Source of the DNA: Pontibacter oryzae
GTDB lineage: Bacteria > Bacteroidota > Bacteroidia > Cytophagales > Hymenobacteraceae
Length of the DNA stretch: 64,000 nt
Assembly (NCBI RefSeq): GCF_003576375.1
Contig: NZ_QWGE01000002.1
Coordinates: 186,001 to 250,000, forward strand
Direction: 5' to 3'
Shown: in pieces, positions 2,730-7,648 of the stretch
How positions within the stretch are numbered: position 1 is the first letter of the stretch
How the letters are laid out: every line of letters starts with the position of its first letter
Notes under the pieces: model-generated
What the model was told of the DNA's origin: nothing
Database searches by the model: none
Seen by the model: the letters and a program-made list of their open reading frames with translations, nothing else
Translations under genes and position numbers: made by a program

Positions 2730-2812
2730 AACTATAGTATAAGAAAGTCTTTTTACTCCACACATAATGCAGATAGTAGGAGTAGGTACTCCTGTTATAC
2801 AACAGTTAGCAC
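2730..2812 (+). repeat. attC-like imperfect palindrome 1 (upstream edge of the cassette-like block)
   Basis: The left arm AACTATAGTATAAG (2730-2743) is imperfectly complementary to the right arm GTTATACAACAGTT (2794-2807), with AAC at the outer left and GTT at the outer right, as in integron attC sites. Between them is a 7-bp hairpin (2778-2784 with 2787-2793). The right end runs into ACATAATTGAAG just before the start codon at 2830. A similar AATAATT-type string precedes the later start codons in this block. This is the most degenerate left arm of the set. Confidence 0.4.
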
Positions 2813-2829
2813 ATAATTGAAGTTAAGAA

Positions 2830-3486
2830 ATGAACATCTTTGACAAAGAATATTTTCCTCTGCATCACTTCAGCTATGAAGTGTTTGTAAGGTGCCCAAA
2901 ATGTAGTGGGCTCGGAAAAGTTACGACCGTCAAAGAAGGCTACTTTTATGAAAAGGACAAAAGCGCCAAGTTCAGTTGCTTAGAATGTGGACACTTATCA
3001 GCAAGTCTGAAAGAATGGTTGGGGTATTATGTCGGCTACATTGGGTTCGACTACAAAGGTAAAGCTTGTGGTAATTGCGGAAGCATATTCCAGAAGGAAT
3101 TTGAAATAACCAAAACACCTTACAAATCTGGAATGGCTGAATGTCCTGTTTGCCATAAAGAAAGAGAGTATGAAATAAACTGGTACAGATACAGGGGCGA
3201 ATCACCAACTGACCCTTTCTTTGGTCTGGACTTATACTTTCAGAAGCAGGTAAAAAATGGACTCCTGTGGGTCTATAACCTTGAGCACTTGCAGTACTTA
3301 AGGGACTACATTAATGCAACCGTAAGAAAAAGGGAGCGAGTAGGACTTTACTCTATGATAGCCAGACTTCCTGATTTTATAACTTCATCTAAAAATAGAG
3401 AAGCAATAACCAAACAGCTCAAAAACTTCGAAGAAGAAATAAGAAAATCAAGTGCTAACAAGGCACACAAGTTAAACATAGGCTGA
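2830..3486 (+). CDS. Hypothetical protein with multiple zinc-ribbon-like Cys pairs
   Basis: Function not recognised. The 218-residue protein has four CxxC pairs, C22/C25, C50/C53, C80/C83 and C105/C108, which could form two treble-clef or ribbon-type zinc sites. The C-terminal half (about 130-218) is helical and ends in a Lys-rich segment. The codons are clearly more AT-rich than in the flanking core genes, which fits horizontal acquisition. The last codons (NKAHK) are encoded by the left arm of the attC-like palindrome at 3457-3515, so the stop codon lies inside the palindrome, as is common for gene cassettes. No signal peptide or membrane segment is seen. A nucleic-acid or protein-binding role is only a guess from the Cys pairs. 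Confidence 0.7.
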   Translation: MNIFDKEYFPLHHFSYEVFVRCPKCSGLGKVTTVKEGYFYEKDKSAKFSCLECGHLSASLKEWLGYYVGYIGFDYKGKACGNCGSIFQKEFEITKTPYKSGMAECPVCHKEREYEINWYRYRGESPTDPFFGLDLYFQKQVKNGLLWVYNLEHLQYLRDYINATVRKRERVGLYSMIARLPDFITSSKNREAITKQLKNFEEEIRKSSANKAHKLNIG

Positions 3487-3525
3487 CGCCATGTTCACCT
3501 TATGTGCGAGCCGTTGCCAATAATT
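3457..3525 (+). repeat. attC-like imperfect palindrome 2
   Basis: The left arm AACAAGGCACACAAG (3457-3471) pairs imperfectly with CTTATGTGCGAGCCGTT (3499-3515), leaving unpaired bases on one side as in attC. The outer triplets are AAC and GTT. The palindrome overlaps the end of the preceding gene and is followed by CCAATAATTGTAAG directly before the next start codon at 3532. Confidence 0.6.
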
Positions 3526-3531
3526 GTAAGT

Positions 3532-4047
3532 ATGAATAAAACCGCAATTTACCTATTGGGCCTCTTAATGATAATGATCAGCTCATGTAGCTCAGGAATG
3601 TCAGAAAGTGAAGTGTACCAAATATTGAATCAGGTAATTGCAGATAATAAACTGCAGGTTAATAGAGTCTGTCAAGACTTTAAAAGCCTGCATCTCAAGA
3701 ATGAATACAAGGAAGAGTTTTCTAAGGACCTTGAGTTTATCAAAAAGCAGAAAGAGCAGTTCTCTGACTTGAAGATTAAGCCCAATAAGCTAAGATATTA
3801 CAACGAAAGAACAGGCAACTATGACTTTATAGAAGTTGATACTACCTGCAGCGAAGGCTTTCTCTATCATATCTCACTACCTATAGTCTCCGAAGACAGG
3901 CAAAAGGTCTTAATCGAGTTTAATGAAGATTGTAACTGTATGTTGGGTGGACAAGGAAGCAAAGAGCTTTATGTGAGAAGAAATGGGCGCTGGGAGAAAG
4001 AAAAATCTTTTGATAGGTGGATTAGCTTAGAAGGCTCGCCTATATGA
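3532..4047 (+). CDS. Hypothetical lipoprotein
   Basis: Function not recognised. I start at the ATG at 3532 rather than the upstream in-frame ATG at 3502, because 3502 falls inside the attC-like palindrome and only the later start gives a clean lipoprotein signal: MNKTAIY, a hydrophobic stretch, then the lipobox MISSC with the lipidated Cys near residue 18. The mature part is 150-odd charged, soluble residues with two further Cys (CNC, in the segment EDCNCMLGG) and shows no known domain. It should be anchored in the cell envelope. AT-rich codon use matches the rest of the block. Its stop lies 14 nt before the next palindrome. Confidence 0.65.
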   Translation: MNKTAIYLLGLLMIMISSCSSGMSESEVYQILNQVIADNKLQVNRVCQDFKSLHLKNEYKEEFSKDLEFIKKQKEQFSDLKIKPNKLRYYNERTGNYDFIEVDTTCSEGFLYHISLPIVSEDRQKVLIEFNEDCNCMLGGQGSKELYVRRNGRWEKEKSFDRWISLEGSPI

Positions 4048-4061
4048 AAAACAACAGTGGT

Positions 4062-4130
4062 AACAAGGCATATAAGTCATACTTCGGCTACGCCTCGTTT
4101 GCCTTCTATACAAGACTTTGTACAATAATT
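4062..4130 (+). repeat. attC-like imperfect palindrome 3 with altered right core
   Basis: The left arm AACAAGGCATATAAG (4062-4076) is nearly identical to that of palindrome 2. The middle holds a TTCGGCT motif that is also present in palindrome 4. The right arm is CTATACAAGACTTT (4106-4119). In the other copies the right core has GTT; here it reads TTT, a possible single-base loss of the core triplet. It is followed by ACAATAATTAAG and then the start codon at 4142. Confidence 0.6.
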
Positions 4131-4141
4131 AAGTTATAGAA

Positions 4142-4735
4142 ATGGGATTAGATTCAGTAGAACTACTTTTTGAAATTGAAGAAAATTTTGGAATTCAAAT
4201 CCCAGACTTAGAAGCAGAAAAAATCTATACTGTTGGTGACTTTGCTGACACCATTTATAAAAAAATAAAAACAGTTCCCAATCAAAAGTGCTTGACCCAA
4301 GTTGTGTTCTACCGTATCAGGCAGGCTATGGTAATCATGGGAAATGTAAGAGACAACATCTCGCCTGATTCTAAAATCTCAGAGTTGCTTCCAATTGGAA
4401 ATGTTCAAGCTGAGTGGGAAAGGCTACAAAAAGAAGTACAGCTGAAATTTCCTGAACTGGTCAAAATGGACATTGACAAAACCATTGAACAGGAAGTTAA
4501 GCTCTTTGGAATCAAAATCTACAAACGAACAGAGCCAGTAACAGAACATTCTATCAAAAAGCTGATTGACTGGGTTATCTCATTGAATTTTAAGCAGCTA
4601 ATTGATATTGAGCAAATCTCAAACAAGTATGAAGTTGAGAGAATTGTTGCTGGTATAATAAGCGAGAAGATGGGCATTCGAATCAATAAGATTGAGTTGA
4701 GACATTCTATCACAGACGATTTGGGCGTTGATTAA
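4142..4735 (+). CDS. Acyl-carrier-protein-like protein with unusual domain order
   Basis: A 197-residue protein related to acyl carrier proteins. It opens with MGLDSVELLFEIEENF, which is the helix-2 region of an ACP, with Ser5 in the DSVE position that normally carries phosphopantetheine. Helices 3-4 follow (FGIQIPD..AEKIYTVGDFADTI). The ACP helix 1 that should come first is absent, and an in-frame stop shortly upstream of the ATG rules out a longer start. The C-terminus (about 165-197) instead resembles an ACP helix 1 and the loop before the Ser, ending in TDDLGVD immediately before the stop. The protein thus reads like a circularly permuted or split ACP around a middle region of about 120 residues. 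The carrier function is inferred; the partner enzymes are not in the window. Confidence 0.65.
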   Translation: MGLDSVELLFEIEENFGIQIPDLEAEKIYTVGDFADTIYKKIKTVPNQKCLTQVVFYRIRQAMVIMGNVRDNISPDSKISELLPIGNVQAEWERLQKEVQLKFPELVKMDIDKTIEQEVKLFGIKIYKRTEPVTEHSIKKLIDWVISLNFKQLIDIEQISNKYEVERIVAGIISEKMGIRINKIELRHSITDDLGVD

Positions 4736-4745
4736 AAAATCATTG

Positions 4746-4818
4746 AATCGCAAGGTTTATATCCTATGCTTCGGCTGAATGCCTTGTACACGGTATACAC
4801 TAGACGTTAGGTGGAATT
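4746..4818 (+). repeat. attC-like imperfect palindrome 4
   Basis: The right arm GTATACACTAGACGTT ends in GTTAGGT at 4806-4812, a match to the integron core-site consensus GTTRRRY. The left arm (4746-4763) is degenerate, with AAT instead of AAC but retaining CAAGG and TTATAT. The centre again contains TTCGGCT. GGAATTATAAAG follows directly before the start codon at 4826. Confidence 0.55.
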
Positions 4819-4825
4819 ATAAAGT

Positions 4826-5260
4826 ATGAGTTTATTATCAAATATTGGTATCGTCAGTTCTATTATACTTTCAGCATATTTGTCTTCCTGCGCAGGTAGC
4901 AATACTACTATACCAGAAAGCGAACTATCTAGGAATACAGGAATTATCATCGACACATTCTCTGATCATCCACCTGAAATTAAAGGTTGCTCGTGTTTAT
5001 TCTCCAATAACAAGAATGACTTCGAAAGTGAGAAATACATTTACGCTGATGATTATCAAGGTCATGCGTTTATCTCAATCAATGGGGAAATGAAACGATT
5101 TACCTTGAGTAACTCTCATAAAGTTTCTGATAAGCACTTCATCCGAACTTGGACTTGAGAAGACTTTAATATTACTCTCGACTATAAGCAGGTGGGAGAA
5201 ATTGAAGAGACTTGGCAGCAAAAAGGAACAATAAAAATCAAGTCAAAAACTGGTACATAA
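4826..5260 (+). pseudogene. Hypothetical lipoprotein gene interrupted by an in-frame TGA
   Basis: Function not recognised. The reading frame starts with MSLLSNIG, a hydrophobic stretch and a lipobox ending in LSSC (Cys near residue 22). It runs 110 codons to a TGA at 5156-5158, directly after RTWT. The same frame then stays open for 33 more codons (EDFNITLDYKQ at the start, KSKTGT at the end) to TAA at 5258-5260, and the composition and style are continuous across the stop. This looks like a nonsense mutation that truncates the protein. Alternatives are a true shorter protein or a sequencing error. The residues after the stop look like beta-strand coding sequence rather than random DNA. Confidence 0.55.
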
Positions 5261-5302
5261 GTAGCTAAAGAGTTTTATGGAGAATGTGGTTGCTAAAAGA
5301 AC

Positions 5303-5347
5303 AACAAGCCATATCCACACCTATAAGTAAGCTATGCCACCTTATAG
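5303..5347 (+). repeat. Partial attC-like element at the downstream edge of the block
   Basis: AACAAGCCATAT (5303-5314) resembles the left arm AACAAGGCATAT of palindrome 3. A 7-bp inverted repeat CTATAAG/CTTATAG (5321-5327 with 5341-5347) follows, but no GTT core is present before the next, oppositely oriented gene. It may be a broken final site. Confidence 0.35.
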
Positions 5348-5357
5348 CCAAGCAACC

Positions 5358-6425
5358 TCATAACCTCCCCAACTCCTCCGCAACTCTCTTATTCCACTGC
5401 TCCTGGGCAGTTTTGTTTAATCCGTGTTGGGTTTCGGCGTCATACTTCTCCTGAAGTTGGTTCATCTCGCGGAACGATTCTATGAAATGGTACTGGATGA
5501 TGCTGTTGTAATCGGCCACGGAAAGTATATCCGGCGTTATTTTTTGCTTAAAGCGTTCGGCTACCAGTTTGGCTATGTCGAAATGTTTTTGCTCGTGGTT
5601 TAGGCCATAGGCATCCAGGGTGCCGGCTTTTGCCCACGACGAACTTTGGAGCATGTATACTTTCAGGTTGAGGTAGAGCAGCAGCGTGCCATTTTTTACC
5701 TCCGTGCGCCCGTCATAGGAAAAGCTGGGGAAGATGGCGGCCGCATACTTGCTCGGTTTGGAGGGGCTGCCTTTAAAATCAGACCAGGTCAGCGGCCTTT
5801 TAGAAGTATAAAATACGGTATCGTTTGTTTCCTTTTCAGGATGGTCCGTGAAAATAACTTTAATGCTGGTGGCGAGTTTGGGATTACTGGCAGCTTGCTC
5901 ATCCATCCAGTTATTCAAAAAAACCATCGATTGCACCAACGTTTTTCGAAGGGCCGGTTCTGCCACGTTCTGCTGGTTAGCCGGCCGGTCGTAGCGTAGG
6001 CCGCCGCGGTACTGGGTGAGGGGCACCGTTTCATCCTCGTTCAGTTTCAGCTCGAAATCCATCACTACCACAGCCTCGCCTTTTACGCGGCCTGGCGCCT
6101 CTGCTTTTTCCGAGAGGCGCAGTTCTTTCAGGCGCACAGTAATGGGCCGCAGGTTTGCGTTGCGTTTGAGGTTGGCAAGTATAAACTGCTGCACGGCTTT
6201 GTGCCCTCCGCCAGCTAAATCCAGTTTTCCTTCCGGTATTAGCTGCGCAACCGAAGATTTATCGGGGCGCTCATCAATCACCTCAGCAATATAAAACTCC
6301 TTTGGCGTGAAAGGCAGCGGCTCATGCTTTAGAACCAAGGGAGTGTTGCCTCCGGCCTCGGCACTAGCGGCAGGCGCAAGTATGAGCAGGAGCGAGAAAG
6401 TCAGCAGGGAAAGTATGATTCTCAT
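5358..6425 (-). CDS. Putative secreted DUF922-like zinc metalloprotease
   Basis: An exported protein of about 355 residues. I choose the ATG at 6425, which begins a good signal peptide (MRIILSLLTF, a Leu-rich core, APAASAEA), over the longer frame from 6470. The middle of the protein shows no known domain. The C-terminal part has the features of the DUF922 family: LTWSDFKG followed by NHEQKHFDIAKL, with His277 and His281 in an HEQxHFD motif that probably binds zinc. Members of the family are predicted but not proven peptidases. The gene is on the opposite strand to its neighbours, and its 3' end abuts the cassette-like block. Its G+C level is back to that of the core genome. Confidence 0.65.
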   Translation of the reverse strand: MRIILSLLTFSLLLILAPAASAEAGGNTPLVLKHEPLPFTPKEFYIAEVIDERPDKSSVAQLIPEGKLDLAGGGHKAVQQFILANLKRNANLRPITVRLKELRLSEKAEAPGRVKGEAVVVMDFELKLNEDETVPLTQYRGGLRYDRPANQQNVAEPALRKTLVQSMVFLNNWMDEQAASNPKLATSIKVIFTDHPEKETNDTVFYTSKRPLTWSDFKGSPSKPSKYAAAIFPSFSYDGRTEVKNGTLLLYLNLKVYMLQSSSWAKAGTLDAYGLNHEQKHFDIAKLVAERFKQKITPDILSVADYNSIIQYHFIESFREMNQLQEKYDAETQHGLNKTAQEQWNKRVAEELGRL

Positions 6426-6601
6426 AAAGTATAGCAGGTAGTAAGCACAGCGCGTGCTTGAAGAGAACAAGCGGCCATACTTTTGAGTTCTGCCGATGAA
6501 ATAACCTTTGCCATACTTTCATTTCGTGGGAGATGCCTTAATTTTGTAGGTGCAACAAGTGGCTGCGATCACGCGCATCCCTGAAACCGATACAACCACA
6601 T

Positions 6602-7648
6602 ATGGCCCTGACACCCGAATCCATTTTAGAGCAACTAAAGCAAAGGCAATTTGCCCCGGTATACTTTCTGCAGGGCGAGGAGTCTTATTACATCGATACC
6701 ATTGCCGACTATATTGAGGAGCACGCGCTGCAGGAGCACGAGAAAGGCTTTAACCAGGTAGTGCTTTACGGCAAGGATGTGGATGTGTCGACGGTGCTGC
6801 TGCAGGCCAAGCGCTTCCCGATGATGTCTGAGCGCTCCGTGGTGATCGTGAAAGAAGCCCAAAGTATAGCCGACATCGAGAAGGAAGAAGGAATGAGGCA
6901 GCTGGAAGCATACTTGCAGCACCCGCTGGCATCTACCATACTTGTGTTCTGCTTTAAGCACAAAACCCTTGATGGGCGAAAGGCACTTGCCAAAGCGGTA
7001 AACAAGCATGCCGTGCTGCTCACCACAAAAAAACTCTACGACAACCAGGTGCCCGCCTGGGTTACAGGTTACCTCAAAAGCAAAGGCATGAAAGCTACGC
7101 AGCAAGCCGTGCTGCTGCTCAGCGAGTTTATTGGCTCGGATCTATCGAGGCTGGCCAACGAAATAGATAAGCTGCTGATAAACCTGAAACCGGGAGCCAC
7201 CGTAGACGAGGGGCTGGTGCAGGAAAACGTGGGAATCAGTAAAGAGTACAACGTATTCGAGCTGCAGTCGGCCCTGATTGCCCGCGACGCCCTGAAGGCC
7301 AACCGGATCATACATTACTTTGAGGCGAACCCGAAGAACAATCCGCTCATCCCGAACCTGACGCTGTTGTTCACCTTTTTTACCAAGCTGCTCACGCTGC
7401 ACACGCAGCAGGATAAATCGGAGCAGGGCATACGCAAGGCGCTGGGCAACCGTGGCTTTCTGGCGAAAGAGTACATGCAGGCGCTGCGCACTTTCCCGTT
7501 GCAGCGCTGCATCGATATTATACACTTTGTGCGTGTAGCCGACCTGCAGGTGAAGGGTATAACAGGAGGCGATAGGAGTGATGCCGATATTCTGCGCGAG
7601 CTGGTGTTTAAGATCCTGCATCCGGTGCCACGGGCCATGGCTTCATAA
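6602..7648 (+). CDS. holA: DNA polymerase III subunit delta
   Basis: Clamp-loader delta subunit, which opens the beta sliding clamp during DNA replication. The length (348 residues) is typical. The start FAPVYFLQGEESYYID is the diagnostic N-terminus of the HolA AAA+-like fold, a P-loop relative that lacks a working nucleotide site. Later segments such as SDLSRLANEIDKL and the C-terminal helical collar domain (about 210-345, with FTKLL and FVRVADLQVKG) also match. It stands alone, preceded by a TAATTTTG -7-like box at 6539-6546 and about 55 nt of leader. Confidence 0.93.
   Translation: MALTPESILEQLKQRQFAPVYFLQGEESYYIDTIADYIEEHALQEHEKGFNQVVLYGKDVDVSTVLLQAKRFPMMSERSVVIVKEAQSIADIEKEEGMRQLEAYLQHPLASTILVFCFKHKTLDGRKALAKAVNKHAVLLTTKKLYDNQVPAWVTGYLKSKGMKATQQAVLLLSEFIGSDLSRLANEIDKLLINLKPGATVDEGLVQENVGISKEYNVFELQSALIARDALKANRIIHYFEANPKNNPLIPNLTLLFTFFTKLLTLHTQQDKSEQGIRKALGNRGFLAKEYMQALRTFPLQRCIDIIHFVRVADLQVKGITGGDRSDADILRELVFKILHPVPRAMAS

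Follow-up and report, generated by a model that had tools for sequence, protein, structure and literature searches.

The window, by which we mean the whole 64-kb stretch of DNA analyzed here, comes from the Pontibacter oryzae genome (G000:C2:186001-250000; genome size 4.23 Mb; G, C, and L numbers are our handles for genomes, contigs, and loci). Four small open reading frames (ORFs) lie on its plus strand between tyrS, a minus-strand host gene outside the element (1294–2598) that has one match per genome in all 50 genomes of the genus surveyed, and a gene pair at 5358–7648 that comprises a host gene encoding a DUF922 protein on the minus strand (5358–6470) and the conserved neighbor holA (DNA polymerase III delta) on the plus strand (6602–7648). 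These ORFs are carried in a cassette array (2761–5364) that is composed of an attI-type site, four cassettes, three attC sites, and a decayed terminal attC-like site. The attI-type site occupies positions 2761–2807 on the plus strand (CACATAATGCAGATAGTAGGAGTAGGTACTCCTGTTATACAACAGTT) with a predicted G^TT crossover at 2805/2806, and related motifs follow the stop codon of a recombinase gene in relatives and head other arrays in this genome. The original prediction had counted 2730–2812 as a fourth attC palindrome; the interval contains the attI-type site instead, and an additional degenerate attC-like site lies at the opposite end of the array.

Cassette 1 (2806–3513) contains an ORF of 218 aa (2830–3486) with weak zinc-ribbon similarity below the Pfam cut-off, and its ends, GTTAGCAC at 2805 and GTGCTAAC at 3452, are exact reverse complements. 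Cassette 2 (3514–4117) encodes a 171-aa protein (3532–4047) with a lipoprotein-like start as judged by eye, and cassette 3 (4118–4806) encodes a 197-aa protein (4142–4735), the N-terminus of which corresponds to the second half of an acyl-carrier-protein domain (PF00550, 21.9 bits with a cut-off of 20.8, residues 3–38); the profile search of the genome contigs gave a single weak acyl-carrier-protein match for this protein. The gene in cassette 4 (4807–5350) is interrupted by an in-frame TGA at 5156–5158 within a frame (4826–5260) that stays open to 5260. Cassette 4 belongs to the same cassette family as a cassette in the integrase-adjacent array of another genome (G064, locus L182), with 74.5% identity over 490 nucleotides and a sharp edge to the similarity at the 3' end but not at the 5' end; the protein similarity covers residues 13–143 and thus runs across the in-frame TGA. 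The proteins of cassettes 2 and 4 matched no family. A role of the cassette genes in immunity or defense against phages had been suggested from the sequence, and this suggestion found no support, as none of the four proteins matched PADLOC at an E value of 0.01 or less; no phage record matching the window array was found either.

The three attC sites lie on the minus strand, and the strand that folds is the bottom strand. Site 1 (3451–3521) has the left end GTGCTAAC-AAGGCACACAAG (3452) and the right end GTTGCC (3513), and the stop codon of the first ORF (3484–3486) lies inside its palindrome. Site 2 (4056–4125) has the left end GTGGTAAC-AAGGCATATAAG (4057) and a right end mutated to TTTGTAC (near 4117), whereas in site 3 (4743–4814) it is the left R box that is degenerate (near 4744), with GTTAGGT at the right end (4806). 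The motif TTCGGCT is common to the second and third sites, and the strings reported in the original prediction are all found where it had placed them. In the terminal attC-like site (5307–5364, minus strand) the right R box has been lost. In short, the window array is decaying toward its 3' end.

The three window sites align in register and form the R''-stem-R' arrangement of integron attC sites. Folding them as single strands, the check proposed with the original prediction, gave a partial answer: the bottom strand of 3450–3520 folds with a z score of -3.0, which none of 200 shuffles equaled, but the bottom strands of 4055–4130 (z score of -1.5) and 4740–4818 (z score of -0.5) fold unconvincingly. 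Because the sites folded singly convince for site 1 only, covariation across species was needed. No window match to Rfam was found at gathering scores. The left-end pattern alone was also tried for mapping arrays and rejected as too loose, giving 51 and 54 matches with 18 and 27 for the reversed control.

A covariance model built from 11 sites (A1), which we refer to as R1 and in which the central stem was offset by one column, was searched against 25 sources at an E value of 5 or less. The 18 matches comprised the 11 training sites, three new sites in one locus (L069), the terminal site of the window (5307–5364; 21.6 bits, E value 0.015, R1 not having been trained on it), and three matches with E values above 2, one of which we judged by eye to be a genuine site. 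A corrected model, R2, was then made from 15 sites gathered with R1, including the four window sites; the E values of both models are rough. In the R2 training sites 26 cells had changed on both sides of a pair, compared with 6.9 in shuffles. The window sites, all of them members of the training set, score 69.6 bits (site 1), 70.3 bits (site 2), 61.0 bits (site 3), and 41.6 bits (terminal site) with R2.

A larger set of sites came from loci with a recombinase gene, which were chosen by hand among 45 other near-full-length copies in the genus, mostly for the presence of downstream sequence. R2 sites were found at 19 of these 20 genus loci, 105 in all, and in the only locus without one (L181) the sequence stops about 300 bases past the recombinase gene. 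In all 105 sites the modeled strand runs opposite to that of the recombinase gene, and the cassettes and the integrase therefore point in the same direction. In the conserved stem of these sites 307 cells had changed on both sides, compared with 113.8 in shuffles, a count that leans toward the R2 structure because the sites, while outside the training set, were found with R2. The modeled bottom strand folds better than the top strand in 96 of the 105 sites (Wilcoxon p 9.5e-18). We also compared the R boxes at their five variable bases in the 20 genus loci, in the integrase locus of P. oryzae described below (L088), and in the window, where both boxes are readable in 110 of 116 sites: 72 of 93 neighboring site pairs match exactly, compared with 20 of 766 other pairs from the same locus. 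In a stricter test, in which matching boxes were linked into chains, 12 of the 20 genus loci exceeded shuffles, with up to 10 linked pairs compared with at most 3, although part of these links are due to chance. In the loci examined, relatives included, R2-type sites delimit the ends of cassettes. The palindromes are thus not scattered irrespective of small ORFs, even though one recurrent cassette described below has no evident long ORF. Given that the window sites align in register, that site 1 folds well, and that sites of the same kind found with the model stand at cassette ends in relatives, we consider the window sites to be beyond chance, and the R boxes, the covarying stem, and the bottom-strand fold in relatives bear out the reading of the array as integron cassettes that have their own Bacteroidota type of attC.

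The locus between tyrS and holA is variable among relatives. In the 11 loci with both genes in reach, window included, the interval between the tyrS and DUF922 matches ranges from 325 to 7087 bases and contains differing genes, so that the order of an ordinary operon is not conserved here. No cassette was seen in the short interval of two loci (L065 and L071), a third has a gene without cassette ends at the tyrS site (L068), and most of the remaining tyrS loci have other small genes on the plus strand. The ends of the first cassette are exact by eye in six loci (L062, L063, L066, L067, L070, and L072) and differ by one change in L073, and some later cassettes have altered ends (L066 and L067). 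A conserved motif of approximately CATAGTGCAGATAA-N-TAGTTR is located 5' of the first cassette, roughly 140–235 bases from the tyrS start, and of the 30 distinct genomes covered by a scripted search (31 rows, as L051 and L081 are from the same genome), 11 have it at tyrS. Related species therefore carry other cassettes, or none, between tyrS and holA, and because the attI sites of relatives hold different cassettes at tyrS, the site was active after the species split.

No integrase gene stands beside the attI of the window. That arrangement is found in relatives and on another contig of the P. oryzae genome, and in both cases the recombinase is not an IntI by profile. The P. oryzae enzyme is a tyrosine recombinase of 492 residues encoded at G000:C1:240883-242358 (8880–10358 of L088). 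Directly after its stop codon lies the motif GGCCAATAACCGGAATAACTCCTTATACACAGTA|GTTATAGGC, and the same strand carries, 3' of the gene, seven sites with scores of 28–66 bits, most of them separated by small ORFs, and one more at chance level (13 bits). By eye, the ends of six cassettes in this array match over 7–9 bases and one interval is without a match. Four genes in the genome exceed the Phage_integrase cut-off, namely two XerC/D-like genes, one gene of 405 aa, and the 492-aa recombinase. Pfam models match the latter at 320–478 (Phage_integrase) and 222–299 (SAM_4), with nothing in residues 1–210, and among NCBIfam models the best score is with NF040815 (207 bits, cut-off 220), whereas the IntI model TIGR02249 gives 200.2 bits (cut-off 265). 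A small gene that diverges from the recombinase gene and lies upstream of it was seen here (L088:10448-10822, zinc-ribbon-like by eye) and in two other loci (L279:6499-6732 and L280:6493-6873) and may encode a regulator.

The original prediction had proposed a search in relatives for a tyrosine recombinase with the integron patch. None of the 50 genus genomes exceeds the TIGR02249 cut-off, and the recombinase that is found lacks the patch. Weaker TIGR02249 matches occur in all 150 genomes of our Hymenobacteraceae sample and in each of 14 control genomes; in the family sample they are often split, covering profile positions 7–179 and 241–315 within an ORF of about 490 residues. Only two of the 150 family genomes exceed the cut-off, both from one other genus (g3). 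Of the IntI-like genes in that genus (L010:1435-2424 and L009:1501-2394), one has an internal stop and the other keeps the insert with catalytic positions changed by eye, and the repeats near them resemble coding repeats among those listed. In an alignment with three Xer proteins, the additional insert of IntI (the patch; about 31 plus 11 residues) is absent from all 16 members of the recombinase family and present in all three IntI sequences. The catalytic residues are kept, by eye, in all 16 members, and the C-terminus is SPLD or a variant of it in these 16 and in two of the three IntI but not in XerC/D. A tree of 43 rows places IntI and the recombinase family on one side of a branch with support 100/99 and XerC/D on the other, in a sampling of three IntI and three Xer rows that leaves out XerA and other groups and gave long-branch warnings. 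Most family members have, by eye, one to three N-terminal repeats of about 70–80 residues each. A profile of these repeats matches the HARP domain of SMARCAL1 (PDB 4o66) with an E value of 0.017, behind an unrelated designed protein (E value 0.0053), and a Pfam search with 22 repeats found HARP in four (best E value 2e-4) and DUF5710 in five, below curated cut-offs in the tables shown. HARP domains bind structured DNA. The repeats might help to recognize folded DNA, a hypothesis that we hold weakly. In its catalytic part, the 492-aa recombinase shares about 54% identity with short recombinases on Acinetobacter plasmids (e.g., NZ_CP104735.1) and in a record from an uncultured bacterium, and one of these records bears the name TnpF. 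A scan of viral contigs with the 492-aa recombinase confirmed no relative.

In the family sample, the presence of attC sites follows that of the recombinase. R2 matches are present in all 50 genus genomes, with 11 to 71 per genome (E value of 0.01 or less, with stricter filters), and at an E value of 1e-4 or less in 76 of the 150 family genomes, including all 50 of the genus; among the matches listed, the R2-positive genomes from other genera are 2 from g2, 8 from g3, and 16 from g6, with none from g4 and g5. In those other genera attC sites occur in all 24 genomes with a TIGR02249 match at an E value of 1e-28, compared with 2 of 76 genomes without, where the cut was chosen afterwards and the best match in two of the 24 genomes (G014 and G029) is the IntI-like gene. 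As a background control R2 was also run across the phylum, where 4 of 296 sampled genomes, P. oryzae included, had a match at an E value of 0.001 or less; this search scored 16 candidates per genome and recovered 15 of the 31 sites of P. oryzae and hence has low sensitivity. The other three positive genomes (G213, G306, and G437) each have a relative of the recombinase. Relatives of its catalytic half are found at an E value of 1e-35 or less in 98 of the 296 phylum genomes, P. oryzae included. Among 20 distant Bacteroidota loci chosen by hand from these relatives, some with little downstream sequence, six (L220, L223, L230, L233, L235, and L236) have chains linked by R boxes that none of 60 shuffles reached, one (L228) is borderline with two of 60, and the other 13 are not above shuffles. 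Spacers of 114–121 bases recur in eight of the 20 loci, which suggests that distant attC sites would be longer; R2 matched two of 19 short distant loci. Finally, two plasmids carry a full-length recombinase gene, one from Rufibacter tibetensis (NZ_CP012644.1) and one from Pontibacter kalidii (NZ_CP111080.1; protein WP_240773492.1). Both genes are annotated as tyrosine-type recombinase/integrase and followed by genes mostly for hypothetical proteins, and R2 finds seven sites on the former plasmid and six on the latter. Because both plasmids are typed as mobilizable, an integrase could come from outside.

A related attI-type motif follows the recombinase stop codon, by eye, in the 20 genus loci, and the attI beside the integrase in one of them (L197) agrees with window positions 2761–2807 in 43 of 47 bases. 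An attI pattern matched 1–22 times per genus genome, compared with 0–2 times for the reversed control. Because such a pattern admits chance matches, we read the heads of arrays directly and recognized attI by eye at cassette starts. The P. oryzae genome has 31 R2 sites, and of 12 array heads examined there seven begin at an attI-type motif: the integrase array, C1:1004412, C7:184599, C6:81130, C7:120384, C1:256016, and the window. At least five attI-headed arrays without an integrase therefore exist besides that of the window. The array at C1:51205 starts at a cassette end with no attI in view, and no start was found in reach for the other four heads. Cassettes are shared across species between these orphan arrays and integrase arrays. 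A cassette at C1:256016 has a counterpart in the G002 integrase array (88.8% identity over 1047 bases), and a cassette at C1:51205 has one in the G121 integrase array (92.8% identity over 726 bases); in both cases the similarity, plotted in 40-column windows, drops near the cassette bounds.

Several observations concern the arrays more generally. The attI core often has an inverted repeat of variable sequence (GGAGTA/TACTCC or GTCA/TGAC), by eye, as if the palindrome and not the letters were kept. A recurrent cassette of about 520 bases with no evident long ORF stands directly after attI in four species (L185:1886-2402, L192:6460-6980, L197:1852-2330, and L181) and elsewhere in two P. oryzae arrays (L088:7405-7862 and L154:2079-2596). 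Folded as RNA, the L185 copy has an energy of -209 kcal/mol (z score of -7.3), and 17 of 137 predicted consensus pairs have changed on both sides, with an unfavorable covariation energy term; no Rfam match at gathering scores was found in the four loci searched. The cargo of this cassette may be a structured RNA. IS110-type transposase genes are located at the ends of arrays or inside them (L088:1004-2014, L279:14292-15350, and L280:10183-11538) and beside the tyrS attI in L069, annotated as such in L279 and L280 and recognized by resemblance in L088 and L069. Certain members of the IS110/IS1111 group use attC sites as targets.

Taken together, these results lead us to propose that the window very probably contains an integron cassette array that is anchored at attI, has no integrase of its own, and was filled by a recombinase acting in trans. 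Cassettes would have been inserted one by one at the attI upstream of tyrS, with the crossover at G^TT, and the candidate enzyme is either the 492-residue recombinase, whose own locus includes an attI and at least seven attC sites, or a copy of this enzyme acquired by horizontal transfer. As in known integrons, attI would enter the reaction as a double strand and attC as its folded bottom strand, and the N-terminal HARP-like repeats could conceivably aid the recognition of folded DNA without the additional domain of IntI. One noncanonical integrase would in this way serve several dispersed attI platforms, the window among them.

A number of points weigh against this proposal. Recombination between attI and attC is inferred from sequence comparison, and in the accessible parts of two reports known IntI are said to need the additional domain (PMC8138268; PMC9668308). 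Exactly matching ends within the window are limited to cassette 1; the variable R-box bases match at three of five positions in cassette 2 and at none of five in cassette 4, and the ends of cassette 3 are unscorable as GTT is gone from the left end. In the chain test, which is weak on short or decayed arrays, the window has one link and is no better than shuffles, and 8 of the 20 genus loci are likewise no better. A looser attI pattern matched seven times in this genome compared with three for the control, and only the match at tyrS resembles attI. The recombinase is present at an E value of 1e-40 or less in 42 of the 50 genus genomes, some copies being broken, so that eight genomes have attC sites and no recombinase at this threshold. 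As for the repeats, their similarity to HARP is below cut-offs, and recombinase ORFs of fewer than 330 residues, with no room for a repeat, are found in 3 of the 18 distant loci with an ORF (L221, L234, and L235), one of which, L235, adjoins a candidate two-cassette chain that none of 60 shuffles reached.

Other origins of the array have to be weighed against the same evidence. The window could hold a dead relic, in which an ancestral integron beside tyrS lost its integrase and left attI and cassettes behind without recent activity. The decayed 3' half and the in-frame stop in cassette 4 fit such a history, and the sequence before attI at C7:184599 looks, in a nucleotide alignment read by eye, like the remaining 3' end of an integrase gene that was otherwise deleted. 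Yet tblastn found nothing significant for integrase remnants at C7:184599 or at the other orphan heads, window included, and relatives with attI at tyrS carry different cassettes; we regard a dead relic as unlikely, though the most probable of these alternatives. It is less probable still that the array is a plain CALIN (cluster of attC sites lacking an integrase) whose cassettes were left by a canonical IntI, since lost, the patch-less recombinase being an unrelated mobile enzyme. The two genomes of genus g3 with IntI-like genes over the TIGR02249 cut-off speak for this history, but none of the 50 genus genomes reaches that cut-off, the patch-less recombinase adjoins attC sites at 19 of 20 loci and has a related attI behind its stop codon, and the presence of attC tracks this recombinase in the family sample.

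The two remaining explanations do without an integron. Modules of the pdif type, moved by the host XerC/XerD at dif-like sites, could draw on the two XerC/D-like enzymes of the genome and on the inverted repeat often seen in the attI core, and although dif sites themselves were not searched for, we consider such modules very improbable, given that the palindromic sites show covariation in their stems and agreement of their G^TT ends and that a dedicated recombinase accompanies the arrays. An ordinary cluster of small genes with repeated palindromes resembling terminators or repetitive extragenic palindromic (REP) sequences would equally show genes arranged head to tail, short spacers, and hairpins near stop codons. 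This explanation is contradicted, to the point of deserving hardly any credence, by the varying gene content of the locus between species, by R boxes that pair across cassettes, by the near-absence of the sites from the phylum sample, and by shared cassettes whose similarity ends near the cassette bounds.

Beyond the window, the integron on the other contig, with a recombinase that lacks the additional domain, suggests an overlooked gene-capture system in Bacteroidota. In its widest form, to which we give about even chances after finding that some distant members have no room for repeats, a large branch of integrons in this phylum would use patch-less recombinases, mostly with one to three HARP-like repeats that read folded attC in place of the patch, and one integrase would serve dispersed attI sites in trans and maintain a distributed library of cassettes, which tools that demand the patch would record as CALINs or miss. 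In the parts of the sources accessible to us, the additional domain is a defining and necessary part of IntI that the standard search demands (PMC8138268; PMC9668308); the insertion is essential for integron function, yet not fully conserved in an integron-like subgroup (PMC8138268), and IntI is recognized by this domain and can use CALIN cassettes in trans (PMC9668308). The accessible text of PMC8618304 includes Bacteroidota among the phyla with integrons and gives origins of CALINs, that of PMC8352920 has 11 models and names no Bacteroidota group, and that of PMC8565304 does not cover Bacteroidota integrons. Our survey of the literature, outside preprints and most subscription papers, found no description of this system, and we do not claim that it is new to print. 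Hairpin recombination would prove to have been solved otherwise or earlier if a family that lacks the additional domain nevertheless has attI, attC, cassettes, and cassette sharing. Patch-less integrons may also explain the apparent rarity of complete integrons in Bacteroidota, as far as the partly accessible literature reflects it, and they may give access to cassette genes, so far unstudied, of a common phylum and make it possible to test directly whether cassettes insert in trans at more than one attI.

Compared with known systems, the arrays described here appear to work like an integron, while the integrase sets them apart from IntI integrons. Like class 1, Vibrio, and other chromosomal integrons, they have an attI beside the integrase, tandem cassettes in one direction, R boxes that match across the cassette, a bottom strand that folds, G^TT ends, and a recombinase with the SPLD-type C-terminus of two of the three IntI compared. 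Unlike in IntI integrons, the recombinase is without the additional domain and mostly has N-terminal repeats, the host belongs to Bacteroidota, the cassettes are co-directional with the integrase gene, and a genome has several attI-headed arrays without an integrase. The original prediction had called the window array a CALIN, and with at least two attC sites and no integrase nearby it is one in the literal sense; it differs in its conserved attI head and in the presence elsewhere in the genome of an integrase that IntI profiles reject and that has a related attI. The recombinase shares with XerA, XerC, and XerD a catalytic domain without the IntI insert, as reflected in its best NCBIfam score, but it branches with IntI and not with XerC/D, is associated with attI/attC arrays, and has N-terminal repeats, which are in turn faintly similar to the HARP domain of SMARCAL1.

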